Of a stretch of 64,000 bases of DNA, positions 15,593 to 53,346 are shown piece after piece. A program made the translations under genes and the position numbers. Source of the stretch: a virus; IMG/VR virus record IMGVR_UViG_3300048591_001244, positions 1 through 64,000 of that record; one strand, written 5' to 3'. Under the pieces are notes generated by a model, which saw only the letters and a list, made by a program, of their open reading frames with translations, searched no databases and was not told the DNA's origin. How positions within the stretch are numbered: the stretch's first letter is position 1; every line of letters begins with the position of its first letter.

Positions 15593-18500
15593 CTATTTTT
15601 CTTCCATGAACTTTTTTATCACTTTTTCCATTGGCAGAGTATTGACAACCATCATAGGAACCTTAGAATCTCCTTTTTTACCATATTTCGTGTCTTTCTC
15701 ATAAACCAAAGGACCATAGAATCCATTTTCAGCCAATCCTTTCATCATTTTTAATGCATCAACAATGGTTGAGAAAACTGGCAGTCCACCCTGGAAGGTG
15801 TATATATAATTGTCAATGTCATAGACAACTGCAACATCACCCCACATACGATTTAAACTTGTATATGTTTCCTTATCATCATCGCCAAATCCGGCAATAA
15901 GCATAGATATCAAAAGCATCATTGTTGCCTCTCTTGCAAGCTTCCGAAGGTTCTCCTGATCCACTGGCTTGAGAGCATAGAACATCTTCTTTGCCTTTTC
16001 ATGATCCTTTTCTTTTGCCAGAACCTCTAAGTACTTAAATGTTCCGCCACCTATATCTCCGACAGTTCGAACGATACCTTTGAGTTTTTTATCACTTGTT
16101 CCGGCAAAGCGCTCTGACATGGCATGTACATCATAGATATCAAACATCCATGTTCGAAGTTGCATGATAGCCCGGCCCTCAGTAGTGGAAGCAGCAATCC
16201 TTTTTGCCAGACGGTGATACGAACCATGTATATCCTGAGCCTCACTGATAAGCTTGATAATCTGATCGGCTGTCATTCCTTTATGTCCATCTTTAACAGT
16301 TCCGTCATGTTTGTACGCATCCCATTGTTTTTGAGACATGCTACCGGCAATGGTCATAGAATGGTTAAAAAACTCAACAAATGCCGTTGGAGAGAATAAA
16401 AGTTGCTTTATAAATCCATAATTATCAGACGAATCTGCTGTTGTCCAGTCATGGTTGATTTCTAAGATTCTTTGCTGTTGCATGATATTGACGATCTTAG
16501 AATCCAAGAAAGCAGTTTTCCAATTTGTTCCTGGTTTAACACTTCCAAAGGTTCTCATTACTCCAATAAATGTTTTCCGGAAACCAAGATCCCTTACATT
16601 CTGAGTTATACCGCCGAATAAGTTCATCGTTGCGGCACCGAAATTCAAAGCCATAAATTTCAGCCCTGTATATTCAATCAGGAATTTTGTGACAATTTCA
16701 ACATTATGAGGTAATTTGCTCTCAGGCTTGATACCATACAACTGCCAATCATTCAGCTGCTTGATAAACCGAGCAACATTTTTTCCTTTAGCATTGTATG
16801 TTGTAGCATAGTTTTCAGTGAATTCCATCACTAAAAGATTGTCACCAAGAGCCCTGACAAAAGCACCTTGATGTAAAAAGTGCATTGCAGGGGTAAAAAT
16901 ATCGCGACTTCTTGTACCTGAATCCTCTTTATACAAACTATGGAACATAGATTTTGCATCAGTTCGTATAATAGGCTCATTAGCCGCATCCATTGGACTT
17001 GTGCTATCATACATCTTCCGGGCAGTTTCAGTAGCCTTACGCAAAGCTAAGTAGTATTGTCGCTTTGATTTTTTATCAGCACCACCAATTTTTTGCCTCT
17101 CCTTTAACGTTCTCTTATAATTTTTTAATGTTACCGGCTCGTCAAACTCAGGAACCATAATGTGAAGGCGATCGTATTTTGACTGGCCAAAAAACTGATG
17201 CATGAATGCAGTAAACCATCCCAGCTTTTTTGATAATTCAGTACCGGTTGCCTCAGCATAATTTACCTGGAACATTTTTTCTCCTGTTGCAATAACTTCC
17301 TTTGGAGCATAGTTATTTAACAGAGATGCATAAGTATCTGCAAACTCAATAATAGCCTTAGACTTTTCATCTGTCTTTCCTTTTAACTTTTGATAGTTTT
17401 CAGAAGCAGGATATCCCGGACCACTTGGATGAACAAAATAGAATACTGATGTATTTGTATCCATATCAGTCATCTCTTTCTTTGTAACTTTCAAATCCTT
17501 TAATTTCTTATAAATAGGACTTAAAAGATGCTTGATTTCAGCCTGAGCATTATTGGCTTCAAATTCTGCGCGCTGGATAATCTGATTCCTCAAAGCAACA
17601 GCAGCACTGCCACTTTTTAAATGTGCCGCAAACGGAGCAATAACATTGTCCTTTCCAACCCAAGAATTATGTGTTGTCAAATCCTTCACATCTCTCGGAT
17701 CAAAAATCTCATGGAGAGCCTTTATGAAAACTCTGTTCTTGTCATTTTTTGAATCAACTTCATTTTTTATTTCTTGAGTAAAAAGGTGTGCCGTAGCATA
17801 CGAAGTAATGATAGTATCAACAGTATCAAAATATGCAAGGCTATCGCTTTTCATATTCATTCCACGACTGTTATACTTAGCCTTCAATCTGCTTAGATCA
17901 TTGGCAATATCTACAGCTGCATCTTTGTCAAGAAGCTCTAATTTGCTTTCATCAGTATAACGATTAGAAAGAAGCTTTGCAGATTCAATCATATCACTCA
18001 AATATTCTTGATATTCCTTTGTTACCTTTTTGGCAAGATTTTCATTTTCATCATTTTGAATCAAATCAATATACCTGATTCCAACCCTGTCTTTTGAAAA
18101 GGTATCCTTATCTATCGGTCTTATCATTTGGAATCCTGGTTCCATCGCTCCTGCATATGGCACTCTTGCAAACTGTTCATTATAGACATAATCATTGTTT
18201 CCGGGAATAGGAGTAAACCCTGCAGCCATAATTTCAAATTCTTTCGAATCTGCCAGCTGAATTTGCTTTCCTGTAATCCTTTCTATTGCAGCCTGCCAAA
18301 AGTTTTGTGCTCCCCTACGAATGATCTCACTAAAGGCATTTCGGGTAATATCGGTATGCTCAATCTCAGAAAGACTCTTTATTTTATTCTCTCTCTTTTC
18401 ATTGATCTTTTTTATCAAATCATCAATTTTTTCCTGATGATCCTGAAAGACAGGACCGGTATTAGTCCTCTTCATGTAATTTAATGTGAGATTCCTAAAG

Positions 18501-21500
18501 TCCTGTTGAGCAAGTTCAGCATCTGTTCCTTTCCACATACGCTGAGCCATAATTTTAGCATAAAGGTCAGGAGAGGCATCTTTCCAGATCATTGCTCTCA
18601 CCCTTGACCAAAAATGTTTCATCCAATTAGAAACCTTGTTAAACAATCCTTTGTTCTGAGATTCTAATTTTACTAATTCTGTTCCAGCCTTACCAATAGC
18701 ATTTACAGCCGCTTCCTCAGAGCCATAATGTGCAAGCAACTTCTTCTTTACAATATCACTATCAGGTAGCATAGCCCAGTAAATATGCGCGTGCTCATGG
18801 AATATAGCTTCTTGGTGAGGCGTGTTAGGATTGATCCAATAGGCATCACCGATGGAAGCACCCCAGGCATTCATGTCAAGCTTCTTTCCCGGAGCGATGA
18901 CATCAATGACTCTCTGGAACTCTTCTGCAGAGAAAGCCTTGACATGAGGGAATAGCTTAGCAAACTTTTTACGCATGATCTCTATCTGCTTAGGATCTGC
19001 AGAAGTGATAGGATCTTCATTCAGATTTTTTGGGCCAATTGTATCTTCAGGGAAATCAATTTGTGACTGTCCTGTAGTCGGTGGCGGTGGAAGATTTAAA
19101 ATAGCATTAAGCTGAGCTTCCCAATTAGGATCAGCCATGTTTATAACAGGAATTCCTTTACGAGAAGCCATTTCATTTGAAGCTGGCCTATTTAAAAATG
19201 GAGAAGCACGCATAACCTCATTTGATAGATTTACTGATTTGTCCTTTTCATAATAGAAAATATCAACACTATTCCATTTGTATTGTATAGTCTCTTTTTT
19301 GCGCTCGAAAATATTATACTTTCCTTTTCTGTTTTCATCCTTGATCTTAACAAAATAAGGAAGTTCATTTATATTCTCTCCTGCCTTGTTCTTAACAACA
19401 TATTTTCTGGAAGAAGGAATATCCTTTCCGTTGATAACAACTCCAGCATAAAGGGTGTCAAACTCAGGAATTAATTCAGGATTATTTATCAAGATATCCC
19501 TTGAAACACTTGTTGCTCCATTAGTAGAATTTAAAAATGAAAGACCTTCAAGTTTTGTCTTTACATCTTTCAATGTCTTGTATGGAAGTATCTCATAGAA
19601 AGAACCTGACCATGGCGCACTTCTCCATCCAAATTCACTAACCAAATATTTAATCAGCATATTCAGATCAGAATCAGGAAGCTCCTTCATCTTGTCTTTC
19701 GCTATTTTCGAGTAGCCAAAATCATCAACATTCTGTTTAGCCTCTTCACTAAGTTCAACTCTCTCATTGACCAGACTGAATGTTAAATATTTTTTCACAA
19801 AACTATCTTCTGGAAACTTTTCAAGCCACTGAGCCACATCATCTTTTAAAGATTCTTTTGACTCTGTGACATTCATAGCTTGAAGCATCAAGAACTTATC
19901 AAATTCATTGTAAATTAAATCATACTGATCTTTTTTTAAGTTTCTTATTCTTTCTTTCCATCCTTCTTCATTGTATGGATTATCAATCAATGACAGCTCT
20001 TTGGCAATTCTATATATCACATGCTGTCCAAAATTTGTTGAAATTGGGTGTGTAGCATAATAAGACCCTGAAATAGCCCTATTGATTTTTGCTCTCACAA
20101 AAGAATCAGAATTGATCATCTCTTGAACCTGACTGTGATTGATAAAACGCAATGGCCTTGAGCCTTCCTTTGGAAACATAATCCGATCATAAGCATGCTT
20201 TCCTTCCATGTACTCTCCATAAGAAAGAGGTCCAGAGGTTGTAAGCTTTAATATCTTATTGATCATCTGTATCTCACTGGAAAGCTTATTCATGGCACTA
20301 AACATTCTCACAATTTTAATCTGAGATGTTATTGAATCACTTTCCATATCATAATCATACAGATCTGGAAGTCTGTTCTTTTGTAAAACCCAAGCATTGC
20401 TATAAAATTCTTTTTGTTCTTCTGTTAATGACTCACCCATTGTTTTAGGAGAGATCATAGCAAGGACAATCTTATCATAAACATCATCACCGTTTCTTCG
20501 ATTACTGACTGAGGTAAAATGTTCATATAATTCAATGAACTTCTTCATTCCCGGAGTATGCATAAATGCAGTAAGACTATCTTCAATCTCAGCATCCAGT
20601 CCTAATAAAGCATCATATTGTCCGGCAGTAGAAGAGAACTTATTCATCATTGACAGCGTACCATTTTTGACAGCATCGGCAGCATGATTCAAATGAGCGT
20701 TCAATACAGAAAACAACTTTTCTTTTTCTCTTGATTCCAGCCTGTTCTTTTCTTCCGTATGAGCACGACCAAGCTGACGAACAAGAGCTTCATCTTTTAC
20801 AAGTTTATTATCTTCATTGTAATAGAAATATTCACTTTCATCCTCTTGATTCTTTTCAATCTCTACATAATAGTTCTTCCCTTTAAACTCAAAAGAATTT
20901 ATTGTGTCCTTATCAACTGTTCTACCCCATCCGGTTAATAGGAATGGAATCTTTTCCCATGTTCTTGACTCAGTATTGAATTTGGGGAAACGAATCTGAG
21001 TAGATAAGTTAATATCATTTGAAGCTAAATTATAAACAACCTTCAGTGCAGAAGCAGTAATTGATATGACATCCTGAGAATCTAAGTTAGCTCGAACCAT
21101 CTTATTCCAGCTACTCGGCATCAACGGATCAAGATTCTTTCCTTCATCATAATACGTTTCCAGATATTCTTTCTTCTCTGCAATAGTCGTCTGCTCAGTA
21201 ATACGATTGAACATATGAGGATCTTCATACGTTTCTTTCATCATTTCAAAGATGCTGTTCATCCGGGACTCATAACTAGAATCCCCTGCAGGAACTTCTT
21301 TTCCTGCCTTGTTCTTATATGGAGCCCAAAGGAATACTGTATCACCATCATGGTCTGATCCGGAATAAACCTGAATTGCGCCATCGGTAACAATAGTATT
21401 TTTCATTGTCGGCGGTAAAAACCCTGCAACTTTAACATAAGAGAAGGAATTCAAATCACCGGTAGGTACGCGAATAATAAATAATCCTTCACCTTCTTCA

Positions 21501-24500
21501 AAGCCATTAGGGTTTTCATCAGACTTCATTGCCGAAGCAGGAAGGTAAACAACAGGACTCTGTACCTCATTTTTCTCTTTGTCAAGCTTGATATGACCTA
21601 AATTCTGTCCTATTACCTTTCCATGAACATACTGAGCCTTTAGTACAACAAAGTCAAGGAGTTTTTTTCTTACCGCGTTCTTCCAGTACTTGTTTACAAT
21701 TCCACGAACAATAGGATCCTGCATTGTTATTACAGACTGCTTGTTCATTTCTTTCAAGGCCATAACATCATCACTCTTTGGATTGATAGTCATGAGCCAT
21801 TTTATAATATCTTCCCCGCTCTTATTTAATACCTCTTGAATTTCTTTTTCTTTTATTAAAGAAGCTTCAGAGAATAATTTATCAATCGCTGCTTTATGCT
21901 TTGTAGACTTTAAAATGTTCAATATCTGAGTAGGAAGGGAACCAAGATTTAACAGACCTTCATTTGTAAGATCAAGTATGACACGGAAATCATCATTCTC
22001 AATGTCTATGTATTTTGGTGCCTCTTTACCAAAGTCAACTTCTTTAATATCCGGACCGCTGGTAGTCCATTTCCAGTCATTGACATTTTCCTCTCCTGTT
22101 ATTTTTGTTCCTGACTTAAATGCAATCCTGTCAATTCCATGTTCTTTAGCATACTCAACAATCTTTTTTGCCATTGGATTCTGTGCATAAAAGATCTTTC
22201 CTTCCTCAGTATGTAAATGAGGATACACAACATCATTAGCTTTTATTAAATGCTCTGAGCCATTGATATGAGTATATGTGAATGCTTTGATAACGCCTGA
22301 GTACATTCCACCGGAACTTATTTCAATCTGGTCATTGAACCAAGGCATCATAATATCACCGCCATCAGGAAGCTCAACTTCCTTGTTCCATACTCCAATG
22401 TCAATAAAGACCTTTGGATCATTAACAATCATCACCCTGTGCGTTTTACCTATTCCTCCAGGTAATCCTTGCAATAAAGTAAGTCCCATACCATGTATCT
22501 TCCTTTTGATAGACATGGCATATGAAAGCTCCCGATCATTCTTACCTCTGAAATACTGATCAGTGTGATACTTGTTGTAAATGTGATTGTAAACAAATTC
22601 TTCGGCAAATTCTCTTGAAGATACTCCGGGATCTGTCATGAACTTTTTGGCAACAAAATTTTCAATCTTTTTTTGCCACATTCCAACTTCCTTGTTAATA
22701 GCTTCAGAAGACTGTTTTGCAGTAGTCTTATTTCTTTTGGCGTGTAACTTGCGTATGCTGTCCTTCTGAGCAGTGGTAAGATTTCTTAACCTCTCAACAG
22801 GGATCATAATCTTAGTGGAGCTATCGGCCTGCTGATCCATTGTAAAAAGATAATTACCCTTTCCTGCCATATGTTCTTTATCAGAATGCATAAAATTGGC
22901 AATGAGCATAATGTCAAAATCAGTACTGTTTAACTTTGACCTCTCTTCTGCAATATTGGTATCAGTATTTTTTACTCCATCAAGCTTAAAGAATTTAATG
23001 GAATCTTTAAACTTTTGGAACCACGGATTATCCTTGTACAGTTTTCTTATATCTTCACGCTTAGCTCTTTTTCCCTGATTTGTAAGAAAGCTATCATATT
23101 CTGTAGAATCCTGATTCTTACCGGTAGCAGTAGTAAACCGTTTGGCAACACCAAGATTTACTGAATATTCAGCAAAGTGCCTTGAGATTGTATCAAGCTG
23201 AGATCCCTTCTCTCCAACTCCTTCATAATAATCTTTTATTGCCTTTGTACTTGTTAAAGCCCTTATGCGACGAAGTTGGTGATAAGATATTTCAGTAGCG
23301 TTGTCTGCTGTTGGAAAAGCTGTCTTTCCTCCAAATGACTGACCATTTATAATTCTATTAGCCAAAAATCTTTCATATGTTTCAAAGCCTTCTTTCTTTG
23401 AATAGTATCTTAAAAAAGCTTCCCACTGACCTCTGTTTTTATGCTGATCAATACCGGTTATCCTCTTCGCTGTTTCTATATCTGCATTGATAAGATCAGC
23501 AACGAAAGAAGATCTGGTAAGAGCATCAATCAAATCTTCCTTTTTTGCAGCCCAGTCAATACCTGTTACATCAGACTTCTTATTTAATTTGCTGATAACA
23601 TATTGCCAATTAAAATGCGTTTTAGCATTTGCTCCGAATTCTTTTTTCAGCAGTTCAATTAAATCCTTGTTTTCTTCTCGAATGAATTTGTCAAGAGCAA
23701 TTAAAATCTTAACTTTCTTTTCGTCATTATTTTGAAGAATAGAACGTATTTCAGTTATACTTATGGAAGCAAGTTTTTTTGCAAGGGACTCTCTGTTCTC
23801 TCTTTTAATCTGTGGCTTAGTGTACCTTGCATTTGATTGTAATGGAACAAATGGCCCTTCATTAGAATTAATGTATAGCAGGTTTACAAAGCGCTGAGAG
23901 CTTTTGTAATGGTTTCTCAAGCGAACAAATCGGTTAAAGTGAAAATCATCTTGGTCTCCATTTCTCCAAACTTCTGCCATTTCTCGAACAGGAAAGAAGT
24001 CAATAAAATACTGCTTGACATCAATTTCATCATCAGGCATCTGATCGACAAGATCTTCTGCCATCTCCATCAATTCATTCCTGGTATATTCACCAACATA
24101 AGGAAGGCTTGTGTTACTATTTATAAATAAACCATATAGCTTCTTTTCATTTTCTGCAAATCGATCTTCAGAATCTGAAAGATTGGCCATCTTTGCAGCT
24201 TCAATTTCATCACTCCAACGTGCCTGAAGAACAGGATCATTATTAACATATTCAGCAATGATAGGATTTCTGATTTCTGTTTTTGAACCATACAAAGCTT
24301 TCAAGCTTATTGTCAAATCAGCTTCTTCTCCTATTGTAAGTTCTTTTCCTGTTTCTTCCCTGTGAAGTTTCTTTGCTTCTATGATAACCCGATCAATTGC
24401 ATCATCGGCAAGTTCAAGCCTTCTCTCTTCTGTAATTTCAATGTTCTTGCTTTTAAGAATACGTAATCCTTTTAGGTAAAGATTATAAGTAAGGTCTAAG

Positions 24501-27500
24501 AGGGCTTTCCATGTGGCAAGACCAACAATTTTAATTACAGCTTGCGGATTATAAAAAAAACCAAGATCTCCGCGGCTCTTTTTAATATTTTTTGCAAGTG
24601 AATCGCTTACTTTTTTTCTTTCTGCATTTATCTTATTAAGAAACGGATCATTCTGTTCTTCTTCAGAAGGCTTCTCAGCTTTGAATTCTGTATCAGGAGT
24701 AATTTTAAATGGATCTTCTGAAACTTCTGTTTTCTCAGGCTCATTTTTAGGCATATGAGAAAAATCAAAATCTCCTATGTTGTTTTCTTGATATCCGGCT
24801 TCTTCTGGACTAAGCTCTCCAAGAATTGACTGTTCAGAATTGCCTCCTTCCTGTTCTTCTGAATAGAATTCATGACGAATTCTGCTGATTCTTTTTTGTT
24901 CTCTAATGGCTTCATTGGCTAATTGTTTTGTTAATTCAATTCCATATTTTGTATATATCTGATCTGAAATTATTTTTGCCGCCCCATAATTATCATGGTT
25001 ATTTGAAAGACTATCTGTTGCCTTTCTTGATGGGTTGTCAAAAATAAAACGGATTAAATAATCTATTGTGTATTCAGGATATTTTACTTCAAGGTTTTCA
25101 TCTTCAAATAAATCGATATTTGAATTGTCTACTTTTTTACTCCCATACTTATCAATAAGCTTTTCTTTAACCGATGAATACTTTTCAGATTCTGATTTTA
25201 ATATTACAAGATCTGACTTCTTCAAATTCTTTTCTAAAACCCAACGCTTTTTAAATTCACTAAATTCTATGGGGCTCATGTCTCTAATATAATTTAAGTC
25301 TCCATGTCTTTGAAAACTTAAAATACTAAACGCAGGAGCATTTTCAGCTAAATAAAAATCAAGTCCTGTTTTTCTTCCAGACTCTACATTTTCTTGTTCT
25401 TTTTTAATATTTAGATATCCAATAATCCAATCGATTAAATTAGGACTTTTTATTGTAGATTCTGCAGAAGCTTCATGTGAACTGTTTTCTGGACGCTCAA
25501 ATTGATAAGATTCGTCATATTTTGCCCAGGCAATATTTTTTATTGCTTCGATTTCATAAATCTCTTTTAATGTATTATAAAGAGAACCCTTATCATATAC
25601 ATATCCGCTTTTAAAATTTTTGAAAATGAGTTTTTCACTATTCCAGTAAGCTCCAAAGGCAACATTTTTGTGATATATTTTTACGTGATCTGTTTGAGAT
25701 AATACATTCAAATATTTATTTTTTAACTTTTCCTTTCTTTCCTTAAAGTTTTTTTTCTTTGGCTCGGATATTATTTTCGCTTCCTTTTTTTCTTGAGGTA
25801 CAACCGGTTCAGCTTTATCTTCTTTTTTCTCCGTCTCATTCTCTTGAAGTTTTAGTCCTAACTGATTTTTGAAGTAAGCAAGGTCATCACTGATGAAAGC
25901 ACCGGACTTTTGCTCATGACGCTGATTGTAAAAAACCTTGCTATTTGTAACCTCTCCCTTGTTATTCAAAAGGTACAGGTATGACAAGCCCAGTTTTTTC
26001 TGAACAGGTTTTTTTGTTCTCTCCGGAATAAACTCTCCTTGAGAATCTACAATATCAGAAGTGGCAAACAGATAATTGTTACCATGCTTATCTGTTAATT
26101 TATATACTGGCAATGACTTAGAGTGAGCAAGTGTTAATGTTGTATTTCCTTCTTTGTCTGTAACCTTTATCTCTCCCCCTGGAATCTCTAACATTCCATT
26201 GACAATTTTCAATGGTGCTTTTTTAACAGTTTCCTTTGAAGGGATTTCAAGATTTAATGAAGGATCAGGCTTTGCAGTTTTATTTATTCCAAAGAATTTG
26301 AGAATTTTTTCTTTGGTGTTAAGCTTTTTGGAAACCTGACTTAATGATGTTTTATGTTTTTTAGGATCAAACAATCGAGCGGCACGATGCTGTTTGGTCA
26401 TATGAGTAACCTCAGTATCATCTGTCTCTTTTTCTATTTCTTCTATTTTTGAATCTCTTTCTTTCTGAATTTTTTCCAACTCTTCATCATGAGCAAAGAC
26501 AGAGATGGCACCTTCGTCATAATCCTTTTTAAGCTTAGCGATTTTAACTTCAGCTGTATCACGAGCTAATTTTTTACGATCGTTTATATCGTCCTCTTTT
26601 GTCTGCTTAGGAGCAGGCTTTTCGTCATTCAGTTCAGCATTGATCTGATCAAGAACATCTTTTTCATCTTGCACCTTTCTCTGTTGAATATCAGAAACGC
26701 GTTTTATTTCCGCTTCATAGTCTTCATTACTAATAGGTGTACCTTCTTGCTGACGTTTTTCTGCATGTCTTTTAATTCCTTCAAGAACTTTCTTTCTGGT
26801 ATTTTCAGCTTCAGTTACCTTTATCTCCTGTAAGTTTTTTGCTCGAACAAGTTCTTCTTTACGTACAGCTTTTTTAGCTTCTTCATCTTCACCCTTGACC
26901 TCAAAAGTTAAATCATCAGAAATGGTAAATGGCTTTTCTTCTGGCTCTCCTTCTTTTATTACCTCAGAAGTAGCCGCCGGGGTTTCCGAAGTTGTTACAG
27001 GTCCCTTAGTTTCTGCTTCTGACGAAACTGCTTGCTCTTCAGATTTAGATTCTTCCTTCTTTTCTTCAGTAGGTTTGGTAGCTTTGGCAACAATACCATC
27101 AATTTTCTTCTGCCAATGTTTAACTTGATCCTCATAAGCTTTTATTTTTGCAGAAGTATATGGATTGGCAACTTCATTTGCTGACAACTCTTCAACTTTT
27201 GCTTTCGCTGAATTTTGATTCCACAGAGCTTCAAAAAACTCTGCTTTATCTTCCGTCTGAATTTTTAAATCATCCTTTTTTATCTCGTCATGATATTGCT
27301 TATAGAATCTTATTTTGTTTACAGCATTATTGTACTGCTCGTCAGTAAGCCTACCTTGATCATGTACTTTTTTAAGCTGACTTTCTAATAAAGCTTCATT
27401 GCCCGTTTCTATGTGACGATAGATCTCTTCATTTTGACTACGCTCTCTTTGAGGAGAAACAGTTCCACCAAAAGCACCACCCATAAATCCACCTAAGATG

Positions 27501-29122
27501 CTCTCATACAATTCTGCCTGCTCCTTCTTTCCCATCATGACAGTACCATATTTGTTACCATCATGACCCATGTTGTCATACATAACCTGCATGTACTGAG
27601 AGAACAATGTCTGAGATCCTTCTTCAATTCCTTCTCCAACAGCTTCTTTTACAGCATTCTTACCATACAAAGCAAGATTTAATGCAGTATGCTTAATGGT
27701 AGCATTGAACAGACCATTCATTGACGTGGGATTAGGAACATCTACCCCTATTGTTAATTGTTCTTTTAATGCTGTCTTAACAGATTTTCTTTTTGTAGCC
27801 ATATCTTCAGCTACATCTTTGAATATCTTACGTTTGTTCAAAAGCCTTAATTCCTGACCACCGATCATTATCTCCATAGCACCTACACCAATTGCCGTAG
27901 CAGCTGTAAATGCATATCCTGCACGTCCTTTAATGCCTGCCTGCCTTGCAGCTTCTGAGGCTTCAGATAAGCTTATCATAGAAGAAACAAGCCAAGACTC
28001 TTTATTTTTAAATGGACTGTTGGCTACAAGTTTCTGAGCTATTGAAGCAGGCTTTGCTGTCAGTGCAGCAATTTCATCTCCTGCCTGAGCAGCTTTCCCG
28101 GAACCAGAGATAGCTCTGGCAACACCGGCACCACCAATAAATTGAGCCAACGATCCAACAACATCACCCATCAGGCGAACCATATTCTGAGGATTTGGAG
28201 TAAACTCAACATCTCCATCTTCTCCTACGCCAAATACAGATTTGCTTGCATCTTCATGAGTGTCAAATTTCATGTTGTCAACATGAGCAATGAAATCTTT
28301 CATCCAGGAAGAATCTTCTCCTGTTGTCAGTCCATAGAAAAGATTTGCAACTTCCGGAACAGTCTTACCGACATTAACAAAACTATTGTAAATCGACTTG
28401 CCTAATGTCGTTGCAGGGTTATCATCATCTGCACTTAGCTGATTGCCAAAAGTGCTTTCTATTTTTGCTCCTGGCGGGGGCAATTCTCCAACACCTAAAG
28501 CGATGGCTTTTCCATCTGCATCAAAATAATATCTCTTTTGATCGGTAGCGGCACCTTTTATTCCACCATAAAGACCACCGGCGGCCGCGGCAATACCTAC
28601 TCCTGCAGCTCCTACCGGTCCAAAGCTTGATGCTAACCCTGTAGCAACACCTGTTGTTGTGGCTCCGGTGACAAGACCTTCCATGAAACGGGAAAACATG
28701 GTATCATCTTGTTGCTTGGGATCAAGTCCCTGCATGACTTTAGCTGTCTGAATATAGTCTTCTGAATCAAAAGTATAAGCAGCCCATTTGAGATATTGCT
28801 TTTCATCATCATTGACATTCTGGTATCTGTCGATCTGATTGTCAATCTCTCGCTTTTTAGCAATTAATGGAGTAATCTGACTTCCGTATTTATACACCTG
28901 ACCAAAATCAGTAAGAGGCTTAACTTTTACATCTGCCCCAGATTCAATAATTTCATCTAATGGAATTCCCTTTTCTCTTATTTGAGAAACAAGATCTTGA
29001 TTGAAATCATCTTCTTCTTTTGTTTTAAAAACAACACCATTAGCTTCTAAGTCATCAATGCTATAAGCCTGACCACTTTTTAAAGTTAAAGGGTGATTGT
29101 TATTTTCCTCTGGTTTTGGCAT
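15593..29122 (-). CDS. Giant virion RNA polymerase / multidomain injected protein
   Basis: 4509 residues. Near 2545-2600 the chain reads IIRVPTGDLNSFSYVKVAGFLP, then SGSDHDGDTVFLW. D2590, D2592 and D2594 match the DxDGD catalytic triad of the YonO-like double-psi beta-barrel polymerases that crAss-like phages package and inject. A HEHAH zinc-protease motif (HExxH, H3442/E3443/H3446) lies in IFHEHAHIYWAM. Residues about 150-195 are Gly/Ala-rich and hydrophobic; about 640-960 are highly charged and helical; the C-terminus has a hydrophobic segment (MMLLISMLIAGFG). The protein would transcribe early genes on entry. The long remainder is unassigned. Confidence 0.8.
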   Translation of the reverse strand: MPKPEENNNHPLTLKSGQAYSIDDLEANGVVFKTKEEDDFNQDLVSQIREKGIPLDEIIESGADVKVKPLTDFGQVYKYGSQITPLIAKKREIDNQIDRYQNVNDDEKQYLKWAAYTFDSEDYIQTAKVMQGLDPKQQDDTMFSRFMEGLVTGATTTGVATGLASSFGPVGAAGVGIAAAAGGLYGGIKGAATDQKRYYFDADGKAIALGVGELPPPGAKIESTFGNQLSADDDNPATTLGKSIYNSFVNVGKTVPEVANLFYGLTTGEDSSWMKDFIAHVDNMKFDTHEDASKSVFGVGEDGDVEFTPNPQNMVRLMGDVVGSLAQFIGGAGVARAISGSGKAAQAGDEIAALTAKPASIAQKLVANSPFKNKESWLVSSMISLSEASEAARQAGIKGRAGYAFTAATAIGVGAMEIMIGGQELRLLNKRKIFKDVAEDMATKRKSVKTALKEQLTIGVDVPNPTSMNGLFNATIKHTALNLALYGKNAVKEAVGEGIEEGSQTLFSQYMQVMYDNMGHDGNKYGTVMMGKKEQAELYESILGGFMGGAFGGTVSPQRERSQNEEIYRHIETGNEALLESQLKKVHDQGRLTDEQYNNAVNKIRFYKQYHDEIKKDDLKIQTEDKAEFFEALWNQNSAKAKVEELSANEVANPYTSAKIKAYEDQVKHWQKKIDGIVAKATKPTEEKKEESKSEEQAVSSEAETKGPVTTSETPAATSEVIKEGEPEEKPFTISDDLTFEVKGEDEEAKKAVRKEELVRAKNLQEIKVTEAENTRKKVLEGIKRHAEKRQQEGTPISNEDYEAEIKRVSDIQQRKVQDEKDVLDQINAELNDEKPAPKQTKEDDINDRKKLARDTAEVKIAKLKKDYDEGAISVFAHDEELEKIQKERDSKIEEIEKETDDTEVTHMTKQHRAARLFDPKKHKTSLSQVSKKLNTKEKILKFFGINKTAKPDPSLNLEIPSKETVKKAPLKIVNGMLEIPGGEIKVTDKEGNTTLTLAHSKSLPVYKLTDKHGNNYLFATSDIVDSQGEFIPERTKKPVQKKLGLSYLYLLNNKGEVTNSKVFYNQRHEQKSGAFISDDLAYFKNQLGLKLQENETEKKEDKAEPVVPQEKKEAKIISEPKKKNFKERKEKLKNKYLNVLSQTDHVKIYHKNVAFGAYWNSEKLIFKNFKSGYVYDKGSLYNTLKEIYEIEAIKNIAWAKYDESYQFERPENSSHEASAESTIKSPNLIDWIIGYLNIKKEQENVESGRKTGLDFYLAENAPAFSILSFQRHGDLNYIRDMSPIEFSEFKKRWVLEKNLKKSDLVILKSESEKYSSVKEKLIDKYGSKKVDNSNIDLFEDENLEVKYPEYTIDYLIRFIFDNPSRKATDSLSNNHDNYGAAKIISDQIYTKYGIELTKQLANEAIREQKRISRIRHEFYSEEQEGGNSEQSILGELSPEEAGYQENNIGDFDFSHMPKNEPEKTEVSEDPFKITPDTEFKAEKPSEEEQNDPFLNKINAERKKVSDSLAKNIKKSRGDLGFFYNPQAVIKIVGLATWKALLDLTYNLYLKGLRILKSKNIEITEERRLELADDAIDRVIIEAKKLHREETGKELTIGEEADLTISLKALYGSKTEIRNPIIAEYVNNDPVLQARWSDEIEAAKMANLSDSEDRFAENEKKLYGLFINSNTSLPYVGEYTRNELMEMAEDLVDQMPDDEIDVKQYFIDFFPVREMAEVWRNGDQDDFHFNRFVRLRNHYKSSQRFVNLLYINSNEGPFVPLQSNARYTKPQIKRENRESLAKKLASISITEIRSILQNNDEKKVKILIALDKFIREENKDLIELLKKEFGANAKTHFNWQYVISKLNKKSDVTGIDWAAKKEDLIDALTRSSFVADLINADIETAKRITGIDQHKNRGQWEAFLRYYSKKEGFETYERFLANRIINGQSFGGKTAFPTADNATEISYHQLRRIRALTSTKAIKDYYEGVGEKGSQLDTISRHFAEYSVNLGVAKRFTTATGKNQDSTEYDSFLTNQGKRAKREDIRKLYKDNPWFQKFKDSIKFFKLDGVKNTDTNIAEERSKLNSTDFDIMLIANFMHSDKEHMAGKGNYLFTMDQQADSSTKIMIPVERLRNLTTAQKDSIRKLHAKRNKTTAKQSSEAINKEVGMWQKKIENFVAKKFMTDPGVSSREFAEEFVYNHIYNKYHTDQYFRGKNDRELSYAMSIKRKIHGMGLTLLQGLPGGIGKTHRVMIVNDPKVFIDIGVWNKEVELPDGGDIMMPWFNDQIEISSGGMYSGVIKAFTYTHINGSEHLIKANDVVYPHLHTEEGKIFYAQNPMAKKIVEYAKEHGIDRIAFKSGTKITGEENVNDWKWTTSGPDIKEVDFGKEAPKYIDIENDDFRVILDLTNEGLLNLGSLPTQILNILKSTKHKAAIDKLFSEASLIKEKEIQEVLNKSGEDIIKWLMTINPKSDDVMALKEMNKQSVITMQDPIVRGIVNKYWKNAVRKKLLDFVVLKAQYVHGKVIGQNLGHIKLDKEKNEVQSPVVYLPASAMKSDENPNGFEEGEGLFIIRVPTGDLNSFSYVKVAGFLPPTMKNTIVTDGAIQVYSGSDHDGDTVFLWAPYKNKAGKEVPAGDSSYESRMNSIFEMMKETYEDPHMFNRITEQTTIAEKKEYLETYYDEGKNLDPLMPSSWNKMVRANLDSQDVISITASALKVVYNLASNDINLSTQIRFPKFNTESRTWEKIPFLLTGWGRTVDKDTINSFEFKGKNYYVEIEKNQEDESEYFYYNEDNKLVKDEALVRQLGRAHTEEKNRLESREKEKLFSVLNAHLNHAADAVKNGTLSMMNKFSSTAGQYDALLGLDAEIEDSLTAFMHTPGMKKFIELYEHFTSVSNRRNGDDVYDKIVLAMISPKTMGESLTEEQKEFYSNAWVLQKNRLPDLYDYDMESDSITSQIKIVRMFSAMNKLSSEIQMINKILKLTTSGPLSYGEYMEGKHAYDRIMFPKEGSRPLRFINHSQVQEMINSDSFVRAKINRAISGSYYATHPISTNFGQHVIYRIAKELSLIDNPYNEEGWKERIRNLKKDQYDLIYNEFDKFLMLQAMNVTESKESLKDDVAQWLEKFPEDSFVKKYLTFSLVNERVELSEEAKQNVDDFGYSKIAKDKMKELPDSDLNMLIKYLVSEFGWRSAPWSGSFYEILPYKTLKDVKTKLEGLSFLNSTNGATSVSRDILINNPELIPEFDTLYAGVVINGKDIPSSRKYVVKNKAGENINELPYFVKIKDENRKGKYNIFERKKETIQYKWNSVDIFYYEKDKSVNLSNEVMRASPFLNRPASNEMASRKGIPVINMADPNWEAQLNAILNLPPPPTTGQSQIDFPEDTIGPKNLNEDPITSADPKQIEIMRKKFAKLFPHVKAFSAEEFQRVIDVIAPGKKLDMNAWGASIGDAYWINPNTPHQEAIFHEHAHIYWAMLPDSDIVKKKLLAHYGSEEAAVNAIGKAGTELVKLESQNKGLFNKVSNWMKHFWSRVRAMIWKDASPDLYAKIMAQRMWKGTDAELAQQDFRNLTLNYMKRTNTGPVFQDHQEKIDDLIKKINEKRENKIKSLSEIEHTDITRNAFSEIIRRGAQNFWQAAIERITGKQIQLADSKEFEIMAAGFTPIPGNNDYVYNEQFARVPYAGAMEPGFQMIRPIDKDTFSKDRVGIRYIDLIQNDENENLAKKVTKEYQEYLSDMIESAKLLSNRYTDESKLELLDKDAAVDIANDLSRLKAKYNSRGMNMKSDSLAYFDTVDTIITSYATAHLFTQEIKNEVDSKNDKNRVFIKALHEIFDPRDVKDLTTHNSWVGKDNVIAPFAAHLKSGSAAVALRNQIIQRAEFEANNAQAEIKHLLSPIYKKLKDLKVTKKEMTDMDTNTSVFYFVHPSGPGYPASENYQKLKGKTDEKSKAIIEFADTYASLLNNYAPKEVIATGEKMFQVNYAEATGTELSKKLGWFTAFMHQFFGQSKYDRLHIMVPEFDEPVTLKNYKRTLKERQKIGGADKKSKRQYYLALRKATETARKMYDSTSPMDAANEPIIRTDAKSMFHSLYKEDSGTRSRDIFTPAMHFLHQGAFVRALGDNLLVMEFTENYATTYNAKGKNVARFIKQLNDWQLYGIKPESKLPHNVEIVTKFLIEYTGLKFMALNFGAATMNLFGGITQNVRDLGFRKTFIGVMRTFGSVKPGTNWKTAFLDSKIVNIMQQQRILEINHDWTTADSSDNYGFIKQLLFSPTAFVEFFNHSMTIAGSMSQKQWDAYKHDGTVKDGHKGMTADQIIKLISEAQDIHGSYHRLAKRIAASTTEGRAIMQLRTWMFDIYDVHAMSERFAGTSDKKLKGIVRTVGDIGGGTFKYLEVLAKEKDHEKAKKMFYALKPVDQENLRKLAREATMMLLISMLIAGFGDDDKETYTSLNRMWGDVAVVYDIDNYIYTFQGGLPVFSTIVDALKMMKGLAENGFYGPLVYEKDTKYGKKGDSKVPMMVVNTLPMEKVIKKFMEEK

Positions 29123-48533: not shown

Positions 48534-50621
48534 TTATATTTGACCACTATTAATTAATTGGCTGAAAAGGTCTCCTTGACTTGACTTATCAACATCATCA
48601 TTAGCCTTTTTAACGCTCGTTTTCATTTCAAAGTTTCCTGTAATTGAATTATAACTCCAGTGGGTTTCTACACTATCCTTCTGCTTTCCGGAACTAAGCT
48701 TGAGTAATTTCCTGTCAATGTCACAGACAATGGAAAGGCCCAAAGCATCTACTTCATCCCAATCTGAATCATCTTCAATCTCGTTGTAATTTGCCAGGCC
48801 ATCAACGATCAGGGGAAAGATACATTCGTCAATTTCATCTAAAACCCATGTTTGTAAAACAGAAAGCATCTGAGGCTTTGACTTCTTTCCAGAAGAGAGC
48901 ATCATTCCATAATCATGTCTTTGAGTAGAATCTTCAGCTTCGAAACTTAATGGTCTTGGTGCCAGGTAAATTTTTCCTCCGTTGGCTTTGTAATATTCAA
49001 TGATTGCCGGCTTTCCCGCATCGATCATTGTCATACCTGTCAGTCCCCAATAAATAGAAGCTTTTAAACAATTATCATAGAACTTTTCCTTCCTTCGCGG
49101 TCTGTTTCGAATGAGCATTACCGGTATTCGCTTATCAGCAAGAGATTCATTGTTTGCATTTCTATAAGGATGTCCTTTTCTCAAAGTGACAACCATTGCT
49201 CCCAAAGACTTACTTGTTATGGACTGATCTTGGTCATAGGAGTCAACTCCACCGGAATATGCATGCTTATATCCTTTGGTAGTAAGAGGAACTTCATATC
49301 CCTTTCGAATAAGAACAATATCTTCCGGTCGGTCCTTACCTTCAATGGGATCACGAAGAATAATTTCCCGCGGGGAACATATCCGGCCATCCTCTTCTTT
49401 GCGATCATCTAAAACATATGGCGCATACAAGGGCTTTGCCTGCATCATCAGATATGCCTGTTGATTTGCCAGAGCATCCCGATCAAACTGATTGGTAGCA
49501 ACAGCCATCAATGCCTCAGCTTCTGTTCTTGGGAAGTCAAGGAAATGCTCTATGTATGCCTCTAAATTACTTGCCTCTTTAAGTACCGTTCGCTGGGTTA
49601 AAATTTTCAGGTCGGCCTGTTCAACATCCTCACAGCCAAGCACTTGCTCGTCAGTAAGGTTTTTCTCCTCTTGTAAAATTTCAATGTTTGGAGTATCATG
49701 GTTTACTTCATTGGTTTCATCTACGCTTCCTGTAAAAAATCCTACAACAAGGCGGTAGCCGGGAACAAAAAATCTGTCAAGGCCATAGGCATTAGCATCG
49801 CCCCACATTGTTCTAAAGTCCTTAGAACCAGACTTTCCAGAAGTTCCGTAGACAAGAGGCGTTCCGATCAGTTTGATACCAACCTTTAGACCGGCAGTGG
49901 TCGCTGCATATCCTTTTAAAAGATGCTTAAATTCTCCACCCTCTTCATAGATAACATCATTTAAGAACTTGCCCTTGAAGACGTTAGCATTGTTGAACAT
50001 TGTTCTACAATACAGGGTGTTTTGAGATCCTGCTGGGTCCGAATTATCATCTTTCCAACCGGCAACAATAAGTTCTGCAGTATCGGAAATTTTAAACTGC
50101 ATGCGCAGTTCAGGGGGAAGAAAAGTATTGAGTTCCCGGAATTTTCGGCGCATATCATCAGAATAGTCTTTTAATCCTGCACACAGTCCGGCGCGGTATG
50201 CTTCTGCATGCATGTACATACCATAACCTAAAATTCCTTTGGCAGCTTTTTCTGATAGTCCAGCCCTTCGTTTTTTGAGCGAGATCATCCCCCTATTATT
50301 CTCTTTTACATGCTGATAGAGATCGAAGTATTCTTTGTCAAGGTCTACATAATCGGGAAGGTGATATCCACGAACAGGAGTAGCGATCTGACAGAAGTTG
50401 AGATACCAATAAAAGTTCGGAGTTATTTTTATCGAGCCGGATTCATGGCCATGTTCAAGGCGATAAAACTGCTCTTCCCACCAAGATTCGTAAGCTTTGG
50501 TGCCTACAACTTTTGGATTTGCCAGAGAATCGGCGTAGGCCGGAATTCCATACTTAGCTACTGGATTTGGGCAGAAGCCGATCCCCTTAATAATTGGCGT
50601 ATAATTATAGTCAAAGGCCAT
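48534..50621 (-). CDS. Terminase large subunit
   Basis: 695 residues. The ATPase domain has a Walker-A-like MISLKKRRAGLSEKAAKG (about 112-129) and a Walker-B-like DVIYEEGGEF (222-231) with the catalytic Glu pair. The C-terminal part carries candidate acidic residues of an RNase H-like nuclease (YSGGVDSYDQD; VDALGLSIVCDID). It packages DNA into the prohead through the portal encoded next. Length and position match crAss-like large terminases. Confidence 0.85.
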   Translation of the reverse strand: MAFDYNYTPIIKGIGFCPNPVAKYGIPAYADSLANPKVVGTKAYESWWEEQFYRLEHGHESGSIKITPNFYWYLNFCQIATPVRGYHLPDYVDLDKEYFDLYQHVKENNRGMISLKKRRAGLSEKAAKGILGYGMYMHAEAYRAGLCAGLKDYSDDMRRKFRELNTFLPPELRMQFKISDTAELIVAGWKDDNSDPAGSQNTLYCRTMFNNANVFKGKFLNDVIYEEGGEFKHLLKGYAATTAGLKVGIKLIGTPLVYGTSGKSGSKDFRTMWGDANAYGLDRFFVPGYRLVVGFFTGSVDETNEVNHDTPNIEILQEEKNLTDEQVLGCEDVEQADLKILTQRTVLKEASNLEAYIEHFLDFPRTEAEALMAVATNQFDRDALANQQAYLMMQAKPLYAPYVLDDRKEEDGRICSPREIILRDPIEGKDRPEDIVLIRKGYEVPLTTKGYKHAYSGGVDSYDQDQSITSKSLGAMVVTLRKGHPYRNANNESLADKRIPVMLIRNRPRRKEKFYDNCLKASIYWGLTGMTMIDAGKPAIIEYYKANGGKIYLAPRPLSFEAEDSTQRHDYGMMLSSGKKSKPQMLSVLQTWVLDEIDECIFPLIVDGLANYNEIEDDSDWDEVDALGLSIVCDIDRKLLKLSSGKQKDSVETHWSYNSITGNFEMKTSVKKANDDVDKSSQGDLFSQLINSGQI

Positions 50622-50960: not shown

Positions 50961-51170
50961 TTAAAAGGGTGATTCTTCAGGATTGCAATTTTCCGAATTA
51001 CAGGACTGCTTGAAAACAAACTCATGCTTCCTGTCCATGGTCCGGAAATGATTTGTTACAATATATCCTCCCTCTACTTCTCCAATACCATCTATAAAGG
51101 TTATCGGATAGGATTCACTCCTGTTATTCAAAAAAAAAGCTCCCGAAGGAATAAGCATTACCTGTCTCAT
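50961..51170 (-). CDS. Small beta-rich hypothetical protein
   Basis: 69 residues, beta-rich, ending with a Cys/Glu-rich segment (SCNSENCNPEESPF). Its start overlaps the upstream stop by ATGA, so it is translated with its neighbour. Function unknown. Confidence 0.55.
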   Translation of the reverse strand: MRQVMLIPSGAFFLNNRSESYPITFIDGIGEVEGGYIVTNHFRTMDRKHEFVFKQSCNSENCNPEESPF

Positions 51171-51775
51171 AGTTCTTCTTTTTTACTCTCTTTTTTCTTT
51201 TTTTGTTTCCTTGCTTTAGTCGGAGAGCGGAGATCCTGAATTTCTGCAAGCCTGGTCTTATCAGTTTTGCTTCTTCTCCTGTTGGCCTGCCAGATTTCAA
51301 GAAGACTCATTTTATCCCTTCCTTCAATAGAATTCGTTGCCAGTTCATCGGTGTAAATATCATGCTCAATCTTATCAATCTCCTTTGAAAGCAATTCAAT
51401 GGCCGTTTGAATATTTTTGATCTCCAAAGGAGAATTAGCAGCCATCATGTTGATGTTGAGCAAAGATATTTTTGCTCGGTAGTTCTTTTGTGTTTCCCTG
51501 CGGATATCATACTGCAGGGAATCATAAAGTTCTATCTCTTTTTTCAGTCGCTTCTCATGCTTATCATATTCGTTATTTTTGAAGCATCTGGTAGAAGCTG
51601 TCAATCTTCTTTGTTTATGAGTAAGCTGTCTGTAGGGAGAGTAGTAGTCAGTGATCAGGATGATAAAAAGCAAATCCTCTGCCGGTAATTTTCCCAGCAG
51701 AGGTTCTAAGCTTATCGCATCGGGATGTAAAAACACCCCTTTTTGATCATCGTATAAAAATAGCGTGCTTGCCAT
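51167..51775 (-). CDS. Helical basic protein, possible small terminase
   Basis: 202 residues: a compact N-terminal domain (about 1-60), a long coiled-coil-like middle (EKRLKKEIELYDSLQYDIRRE...) and a very basic tail (KARKQKKKKESKKEEL). A DNA-binding head, helices and location two genes before the large terminase are compatible with a small terminase subunit. No motif proves this. Confidence 0.5.
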   Translation of the reverse strand: MASTLFLYDDQKGVFLHPDAISLEPLLGKLPAEDLLFIILITDYYSPYRQLTHKQRRLTASTRCFKNNEYDKHEKRLKKEIELYDSLQYDIRRETQKNYRAKISLLNINMMAANSPLEIKNIQTAIELLSKEIDKIEHDIYTDELATNSIEGRDKMSLLEIWQANRRRSKTDKTRLAEIQDLRSPTKARKQKKKKESKKEEL

Positions 51776-52554
51776 TATAATGGAAGTTGTCTGCGTTGTG
51801 ATCTTTGCTTTTCAATAGCAGCTTTTCTTTCTTCAGATTTTAATTGAGCAAGTTTGCGAAGGTCATCATTTCCTTCCAGAACAGATTTTATCCTGGAAAG
51901 TTCCATGCCGAGCCACATCTTTGCTTCTATCAAGGCAAGCCATGAAGTCTGTACAAAGATCCCTTCAAAGTTATGGTCCTGATAAGCATCAATGATCGTC
52001 TGAATAACACTACGAATTCTCTTAACTCCCGATGTTTGAGAAAGACCATTTTCATTAAAGATATGTCCATCTACAGCCTCAGCTGTCGGTTCGATCTTTT
52101 TTGATTCCGGGTTCATGCTTTCCGGATATAGATTCTCCTGATCCAGTTCCTTTAGGCGCATGTCAAGGAACATTTTTGCTTTTTCAAGGTTTGTAAGTGC
52201 CAGTGACACTTCTCGGCTGGGATTTAAAACCTTCACTGAGTTCATCAGCGCGTGAATATCCCTTCGTATAATTCGTATTCTTTCTGTTTCTACTACCATA
52301 AGATTTTGATTAGCGTCAAGAATTACTGATTCACTGTTATTCTCCGGATGATCATCATCGTCATCATCATCAAAGTGAGACCCCTCTTGATAATCGTAAT
52401 TTTCATTACTTCCAGAACCATCATTATCTTCAACGACAAGTTCAATGTCACCAAGTTTGAAAGGCTCCTGTGGAACTTCTTCCAAAGGACTGCTTTCAGG
52501 AGATGGTTTAATCAAAGGCTTCTTGCGAAAAACCCCTTTTTCATTTTCACTCAT
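51775..52554 (-). CDS. Tandem Acb2/Tad1-like hairpin protein (candidate anti-CBASS/anti-Thoeris)
   Basis: 259 residues: an acidic disordered start with an Asp run (62-68), then two related helical hairpins. The first (about 89-158) has SREVSLALTNLEKAKMFL followed by NPESKKIEPTAE. The second (about 176-226) has WLALIEAKMWLGMEL. The 'LalT.L.eAKmwLg..L' pattern followed by 'NP.s..IEPTAdt' is what I recall for the Acb2/Tad1 hairpin family, whose members sequester cyclic nucleotides or gcADPR that trigger host immunity. Two copies in one chain is unusual. The tail is basic. Family call from memory of the pattern. Confidence 0.6.
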   Translation of the reverse strand: MSENEKGVFRKKPLIKPSPESSPLEEVPQEPFKLGDIELVVEDNDGSGSNENYDYQEGSHFDDDDDDDHPENNSESVILDANQNLMVVETERIRIIRRDIHALMNSVKVLNPSREVSLALTNLEKAKMFLDMRLKELDQENLYPESMNPESKKIEPTAEAVDGHIFNENGLSQTSGVKRIRSVIQTIIDAYQDHNFEGIFVQTSWLALIEAKMWLGMELSRIKSVLEGNDDLRKLAQLKSEERKAAIEKQRSQRRQLPL

Positions 52555-52566
52555 TTTTTTTTAGTT

Positions 52567-53346
52567 TTAAAAATAGTTAGTAATTGACGCTTGGTTAAGC
52601 AGCGTCTGAGCTTCGTGTTTCAAGTATGGAATGGGAATCTTCAACCAAAATACTGGCTCGTTTTTTTCCATCGCTTCTAAGTTTATCCAGATCAAAGATA
52701 GTGTTCCTATCCGATATCCGTGTTCTTCCATCATCGCAGCATATAAACTTTGCTGTATAGCATACCGGGTGTACTTATTATCGACAAGATGATCAATCGG
52801 TGGATACATCCAGGCACTGTACTGATAAACATTCTCAATACCCTTCTTATTGGTCTTAAAATCTTCAATATGAAGGATTTTATTCTTTGGAGATTCCAAA
52901 ATAGGAACGTCCATTGTTCCGGCAACCTGAGCTTTTTCAGAATAAGCAATGACTTCCGTATAGCATTGGTAGTAATTAGAGAAGATTCCTGCCAGCCGGC
53001 GGATTTGCTTCTCCCACTGAGGTTCTGTTATCTGTCCTGAGCCAATGTAATCTTCCATTGCATTGTGAAAGATTGTTCCTCTGTCTGCAGCATCCTGACC
53101 GCCTTGCTTCCATTGCTCCTGTAACTTTTTTGACTCCCTGTTGATCGATGCTGTTGTTATTGCTACACCATCAGCTTTCATCTTTTTAATGGCGCTACCT
53201 ACAGAAGCTCCTTTGGCATCAAAGGCTTTGTAATACTGAGCAAGTAATTTGCTTACCGATATGTATCTGGTACCATCCTGATGATAGTACTGATGCTCCG
53301 GATCTTTACGGTGAACTTTATTTGGAAATGGATTAAGTGTATTCAT
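52567..53346 (-). CDS. PD-(D/E)XK nuclease, RecB/Cas4-like
   Basis: 259 residues. Core motifs of the RecB-type nuclease fold are visible: DRGTIFHNAMEDYI (about 85-98), the conserved 'G.D' strand as VAGTMDVPIL (about 140-149), and HIEDFKTNKKG (about 157-167) with the D-x-K catalytic pair. Then YQYSAWMYPP and YAIQQSLYAAMMEE give the QxxxY-like helix. Exonucleases of this type serve phage recombination or DNA processing. No helicase domain. Confidence 0.7.
   Translation of the reverse strand: MNTLNPFPNKVHRKDPEHQYYHQDGTRYISVSKLLAQYYKAFDAKGASVGSAIKKMKADGVAITTASINRESKKLQEQWKQGGQDAADRGTIFHNAMEDYIGSGQITEPQWEKQIRRLAGIFSNYYQCYTEVIAYSEKAQVAGTMDVPILESPKNKILHIEDFKTNKKGIENVYQYSAWMYPPIDHLVDNKYTRYAIQQSLYAAMMEEHGYRIGTLSLIWINLEAMEKNEPVFWLKIPIPYLKHEAQTLLNQASITNYF

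Follow-up and report, generated by a model that had tools for sequence, protein, structure and literature searches.

At one locus of a crAss-like viral contig, a gene of unassigned function lies a short way upstream of the large terminase gene, and on first reading its product seemed to carry two hairpins of the Acb2/Tad1 type. Does the protein really hold two such hairpins, and if it does, what might a single chain do with both of them? The window analysed here is a stretch of 64,000 nucleotides from a virus contig of 79,204 bases, with matches to crAss-type families for its terminase, its portal and its major head protein; by sequence, the source is a crAss-like phage, with a TerL 21-26% identical to those of Crassvirales. 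The first-pass annotation had placed the gene exactly where a 259-residue open reading frame is found (Table 1), leaving its strand unstated; the plus strand over 51775-52554 is full of stops, and the coding strand is the minus strand (52554-51775). Downstream of the gene come, in order, a 202-residue frame, two small open reading frames, the large terminase (1.15 kb away) and the portal. The stop codon of the two-hairpin gene overlaps the ATG of the 202-residue frame as TAATG, and the two are therefore probably translated together. Elsewhere in the window, positions 15593-29122 of the minus strand hold a single open reading frame of 4509 residues, and a 1385-residue protein (9776-13933) has Hoc-like head-decoration matches in three stretches.

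Table 1. Features of the two-hairpin protein and its neighbours, in window coordinates.
Feature	Position	Strand	Basis
Two-hairpin protein ORF, 259 aa	51775..52554	minus	Uninterrupted frame from ATG to TAA
Acidic leader, residues 1-73, predicted disordered	52336..52554	minus	Low pLDDT, no secondary structure (AlphaFold2)
Hairpin 1, residues 74-138, carries SREVSLALT	52141..52335	minus	AlphaFold2 helices 74-108 and 114-138; profile score
Hairpin 1 tail, residues 139-160, YPESMNPESKKIEPTAE	52075..52140	minus	Conserved in single-hairpin relatives; varying form in tandem proteins
Hairpin 2, residues 176-228, KRIR...LIEAKMWLGMELSRIK, without tail or SRE...T	51871..52029	minus	Profile score; AlphaFold2 helices 176-193 and 200-228; clade placement
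Basic C-terminal helix, residues 230-259	51778..51867	minus	9 K/R in 30 residues; AlphaFold2 helix 230-255
PD-(D/E)XK-type phage exonuclease, upstream neighbour	52567..53346	minus	PHROG 298, E 2.3e-23
202-aa ORF, downstream, overlapping the two-hairpin ORF	51167..51775	minus	Homologues just upstream of crAss-like TerL
Terminase large subunit, crAss type	48534..50621	minus	PHROG 6681, E 3.3e-44

The AlphaFold2 model of the full chain contains the helices listed in Table 1, that is, two long helices per hairpin, in keeping with the antiparallel pair of the superfamily (as read from the helix boundaries, not from coordinates), followed by a tail helix, and no β-strands are predicted anywhere in the protein. 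The full-length pTM is only 0.40, and how the two hairpins pack together is therefore not confidently predicted. The model folded hairpin 2 even though that region had almost no aligned rows; modelled alone with its family alignment, hairpin 2 again gives a hairpin with a pLDDT of 88.5, although this model leans on the family by construction. An acidic leader and a basic tail had been described at first reading, and the composition bears both out: residues 1-85 hold 24 D/E against 6 K/R, and residues 230-259 hold 9 K/R against 5 D/E. Long leaders are also present in several of the related proteins described below (contigs L123, L190-L194 and L218), and the basic C-terminal helix is absent from all the other two-hairpin proteins.

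The Pfam family PF24729 (Acb2_Tad1_hairpin) has a gathering cut-off of 27 bits. Hairpin 1 alone scores 21.7-23.9 bits, under that cut-off, and hairpin 2 has no Pfam match to the family; that neither hairpin directly passes the cut-off stands against reading the protein as a sponge. The four relatives of hairpin 1 that were scanned first score 27.4-35.0 bits, above the cut-off, and a profile of the domains of 63 distinct single-hairpin relatives gives hairpin 1 79.5 bits (against 19.6 and 7.7 bits with the profiles of two-hairpin proteins, making the single-hairpin family its nearest). Since these intermediate relatives exceed the cut-off and the relatives' profile scores hairpin 1 so highly, hairpin 1 can be assigned to PF24729. 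By tblastn, Tenacibaculum phage Gundel_1, Bacteroides phage BK735P4, phage cr111_1 and crAssphage ctcc615 (for the last, 56% over 55 residues) all carry relatives, in every case annotated as hypothetical proteins, and scans gave a further 80 single-hairpin loci in viral contigs and nine in bacterial genomes. The family is mainly viral, since in 396 Bacteroidota genomes only the one seed genome passed the PF24729 cut-off. Among solved structures, the relatives' profile matches Tad1 (8kbb, E 8.5e-6); its match to 'Acb2 homolog 43' (9ptq, E 0.056) is weak.

The detail of the sequence points the same way. Hairpin 1 keeps all nine invariants of the family (R97, R114, T121, M128, L130, M132, L134, Y143 and P149), and T121, in hairpin 1 only, aligns with T68 of T4 Acb2, a conserved threonine of helix 2; the substitution T68M is reported to lower binding by T4 Acb2 (PMC12657230). 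The first-pass annotation regarded the continuation NPESKKIEPTAE as typical of the hairpin family. This is borne out for the Bacteroidota-phage branch, but could not be shown for the Tad1 and Acb2 proteins with solved structures. Each of the 93 single-hairpin relatives stops at or near the tail, 0-14 residues past the domain, and none of the 93 has a second hairpin. The case in sequence is strong for homology of hairpin 1 to Acb2 and Tad1, as a member of a Bacteroidota-phage family of such hairpins.

Hairpin 2 is, on profile evidence, a real but diverged copy of the same type of hairpin. It scores 17.7-18.9 bits with the single-hairpin profile, where the best shuffled sequences reach 13.5 bits (of 2000) and 12.3 bits (of 3000), and its hhalign score of 41.1 exceeds those of 300 shuffles (at most 24.6) and of 600 unrelated open reading frames (at most 19.1). 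With a profile of the C-terminal hairpins from the 24 other two-hairpin proteins it reaches 36.2 bits (best of 3000 shuffles 11.2), against 18.0 bits with the single-hairpin profile and 10.9 bits with the N-terminal-hairpin profile. The original proposal of two Acb2/Tad1-type hairpins in one protein is therefore upheld by profile searches with shuffle and unrelated-ORF controls, and the homology of both halves to the Acb2/Tad1 hairpin superfamily, with the protein as a two-hairpin member, is strongly indicated. T203 was considered as the hairpin 2 counterpart of the conserved threonine and rejected, being one residue out of register (11 rather than 12 residues before the core W). Pfam matches of the window protein to NAGLU and YscO fall below cut-off and were disregarded.

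No relative of hairpin 2 was found when the window protein or its C-terminal half was used as a sequence query against the PDB, phages and viral contigs; such relatives emerged only by way of the terminase neighbourhood. Contigs L103 and L123 carry two-hairpin proteins upstream of TerL, the TerL of L103 being 37% identical to that of the window. An alignment of these two proteins with the window protein led to 13 more loci, and the enlarged alignment to 30 loci in total, some of them repeated. With near-identical copies removed, the two-hairpin layout is present in at least 24 other viral contigs besides the window, a recurrence that goes beyond what was proposed at first. The single-hairpin profile by itself recovers 22 of the 25 records, with E values from about 1e-3 to 6.8e-23 (L211). 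As far as the coordinates show, its matches always lie within the tandem gene, and in the 22 recovered records no separate single-hairpin gene was seen at E ≤ 0.01. A search of the PDB with the tandem alignment gave chance matches only. The literature searched contains no description of tandem Acb2/Tad1 hairpins; the preprint 10.1101/2025.08.24.671296 and Tal et al. (2026, Science) fall outside its scope, and for this reason we claim no priority.

The 25 chains resemble each other in the way their two halves differ. A tail of the PY...(D)IEPTAD type (PY...IxPTAD) follows hairpin 1 in all 25, divergent in a few, and follows hairpin 2 in none. In L217 and L194 the hairpin 1 tail is present but departs from the search pattern (NPYPNSTDSSNTTVEPSAD and SPYAGEDKIQSRNEIPATAE, respectively), and in L211 it is a longer variant. 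The chains end 10-19 residues past the core W position of hairpin 2, with the exception of the window protein, which continues for 45. In a tree of 21 ungapped helix-2 columns the C-terminal hairpins of all 25 chains fall into a single clade (support 0.91), and all but one of the 25 N-terminal hairpins group together (support 0.72, in what is a short alignment). With moderate support from this alignment, the layout looks to have come from one duplication or fusion, and the common clade of the C-terminal hairpins makes the event look old.

The two halves of the window protein are not equivalent, since hairpin 2 has neither the SRE...T signature nor the YP...IEPTAE tail. The first-pass annotation was right that a pair of hairpins is present, with the correction that the two are not alike; of the two outcomes it envisaged, binding of two ligands or a different assembly, the second is favoured, two equal sites being at odds with a tail that occurs on hairpin 1 only, in 25 of 25 chains. 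Common membership of one superfamily would suit a chain of two equivalent sponge domains that binds two ligands, and yet hairpin 2 is without a tail throughout, lacks SRE...T in the window, and belongs to a C-terminal clade of its own; we consider this arrangement very unlikely. The SRE...T signature is itself unevenly distributed. Intact R-E-T is found in hairpin 1 of the window protein and L211 (R-N-T in L222) and in hairpin 2 of L194, L207 and L210 (R-N-T in L123). No chain of the 25 has SRE...T intact in both hairpins, and most have it in neither. A strict model, in which hairpin 1 gives the tail and hairpin 2 gives SRE...T, was dropped, as it fits only 4-6 of the 25 chains. Given the loss of SRE...T from hairpin 2 of the window and from most tandem hairpins 1, ligand binding could be altered or lost.

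The position of the gene raises the question of a role in packaging. The tandem gene is followed on its own strand by a crAss-type TerL, at a distance of 0.5-3.7 kb, in 16 of the 24 other tandem contigs, and this terminase-adjacent position may hint at a link to morphogenesis. The most direct form of such a link would be a packaging or assembly factor such as a small terminase, a helical oligomer, encoded close to TerL, in which the leader is acidic and the basic tail binds DNA. Besides its location, the basic tail helix of the window protein agrees with this, as do fold matches to the T6 small terminase, which are weak and short of significance, and, in one subclade, a GroEL-like gene directly downstream. 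However, a clear match to a small-terminase family, which was named at the outset as the finding that would speak against a sponge, is absent from Pfam and PHROGs at E values up to 10; no other member has the basic tail; and hairpin 1 is homologous to Tad1 and Acb2, not to a terminase. The remaining eight of the 24 contigs have no crAss-type TerL in the available stretch, and a recognisable tandem gene is present at only one (L123) of 38 crAss-type TerL loci for which 3.9 kb or more of upstream sequence is available, in a sample biased to relatives of the window terminase and including many fragmentary records. This is too patchy for a core packaging gene, and fits an accessory gene better. 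A different gene, the 202-residue family, repeatedly adjoins TerL. We therefore regard a small-terminase role for the two-hairpin protein as unlikely.

The 202-residue family is unannotated. It adjoins or nearly adjoins TerL in many crAss-like contigs, recurring beside it in at least a dozen, with homologues just upstream of TerL in L102, L104, L105, L107, L108, L110-L115 and L117; it is the better candidate for a small terminase. A separate frame between the two-hairpin gene and TerL in L103 (1577-1993) is likely a DUF4326 member.

In the subclade formed by L123, L190-L194 and L218, the two-hairpin gene stands directly before a GroEL-like gene, a few kb upstream of TerL; in L194 the GroEL-like gene is a Pfam Cpn60 match. 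An apparent GroES-like gene precedes the two-hairpin gene in this subclade, and a Cpn10 match (E 6.9e-5) was obtained among the neighbours, the contig being unspecified. This chaperonin linkage is consistent with a protein that has kept the sponge fold but now serves a structural or regulatory purpose, for instance holding a chaperonin, a nuclease or another phage protein, with no nucleotide ligand, and the scarcity of intact SRE...T among the 25 chains would agree. Against this stands the conservation of the YP...IEPTA tail and, in the window, of the full SRE...T of hairpin 1, which together suggest that a binding site has been maintained, at least in the window protein; we judge such a change of function unlikely. 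If nucleotides were not bound, the family would plainly illustrate how a sponge fold can be taken over for a different task near packaging or chaperonin genes.

It is worth adding that the hairpin also occurs in other contexts. A RyR domain (PF02026, E 5e-9 to 7e-11) is followed by a C-terminal Acb2/Tad1-type hairpin in L022 (2596-3210), L031 (2536-3210) and L061 (2581-3210), and by eye also in L048 and L068. Such fusions could possibly be two-module sponges or hydrolases for ADP-ribose signals. L009 (2791-3204) has a DUF1508 domain fused to the hairpin, and in L050, L071, L079 and L081 it is preceded by other N-terminal extensions, 60-70 residues long. As a C-terminal domain, the hairpin appears to be modular.

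Taken together, these features suggest that the window protein is a single-chain form of a known immune-evasion family, one that has so far been overlooked. We consider it probable that it is an asymmetric pseudo-dimer of the Acb2/Tad1 sponge fold within a single chain, sequestering one of the host's nucleotide immune signals. Two hairpins would have been brought into one chain by an old duplication or fusion, after which hairpin 1 would have retained its C-terminal tail and hairpin 2 would have lost it, becoming structural or contributing a half-site. Hairpin 1 would pack against hairpin 2, and the resulting pseudo-dimer would assemble further; this reading is suggested by the fact that in known relatives the ligand pockets lie between two protomers. 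The hairpin 1 tail would take the role of the Tad1 tail, although no similarity in sequence between the two tails could be shown, and each chain would sequester at most one signal. The signal would come from CBASS (a cyclic oligonucleotide) or from Thoeris (an ADP-ribose signal), and its sequestration would block the effector. An immune-signal role is supported by the homology to Tad1 and Acb2 and by the fusions to RyR domains; pressure from cyclic-nucleotide immunity in the host, as first suggested, is by analogy plausible.

More tentatively, these proteins may form an undescribed clade of single-chain asymmetric sponges that is widespread in crAss-like phages, with at most one composite pocket per chain made from the hairpin 1 tail and the hairpin 2 helices. 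A symmetric homodimer with two pockets would then have become one chain with one tail. If this is true, the asymmetric site could have a ligand range out of reach of symmetric sponges, and the conserved chain with two hairpins and one tail would show a symmetric sponge evolving into an asymmetric one. We found no annotated counter-defence example in crAss-like phages, and the tandem family offers ready candidates. Natural controls are available in the single-hairpin relatives, and in the chains with SRE...T on hairpin 1 (window, L211, L222) or on hairpin 2 (L194, L207, L210, L123).

The known Acb2 and Tad1 proteins assemble as symmetric homo-oligomers whose chains each have a single hairpin. 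Acb2 (T4 Vs.4, PDB 7uq2; Acb2 homolog 43, PDB 9ptq) shares with the window protein the hairpin fold and the T121/T68 alignment, and T4 Vs.4 scores 71.4 bits with PF24729. However, Acb2 is a single hairpin of about 90 residues with no leader, whereas the window protein has 259 residues and two hairpins. The single-hairpin proteins of ctcc615, Gundel_1, BK735P4 and cr111_1 are 37-46% identical to hairpin 1 plus its tail; they stop 0-14 residues past the domain, where the window protein adds a second hairpin. A fold search of the PDB with both AlphaFold2 models gave nothing at E ≤ 0.001; the T6 small terminase (9oox, E 3.2 and 5.2), Tad1 (7uav, E 2.6) and Acb2 (7uq2, E 2.8; 8h2x, E 4.0) appeared alongside many unrelated hairpins. 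At such short lengths the comparison is uninformative, and the lack of a structural match, named at first reading as a refuting outcome, is therefore not decisive. Phage RyR-domain proteins (RyDEP) break down or sequester 2'cADPR/3'cADPR (PMC13232231), and RyR domains joined to this hairpin occur in L022, L031 and L061; the window protein itself lacks a RyR domain, and its link to RyDEP would be one of guilt by fusion.

Tad1 (8kbb, 7uav) provides the closest parallel for the proposed assembly. Its helical hairpin has the motif RE..AITKLQE..MWL, and 8kbb is the entry matched by the relatives' profile. The original description of known sponges as small single-domain proteins needs correcting here: Tad1 is not a bare hairpin, having one hairpin after an N-terminal β-sheet, whereas the window protein has two hairpins and no predicted strands, and in addition a long acidic leader and a basic tail, unlike Tad1. 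Tad1 forms hexamers of three dimers, in which each pocket is made by the tail of one protomer and helices α1-α2 of the other, and Acb2 likewise binds between protomers (reviewed in PMC12043709). If the tail of hairpin 1 acts like the Tad1 tail, the tandem chain would correspond to a covalent dimer minus one of its two tails.
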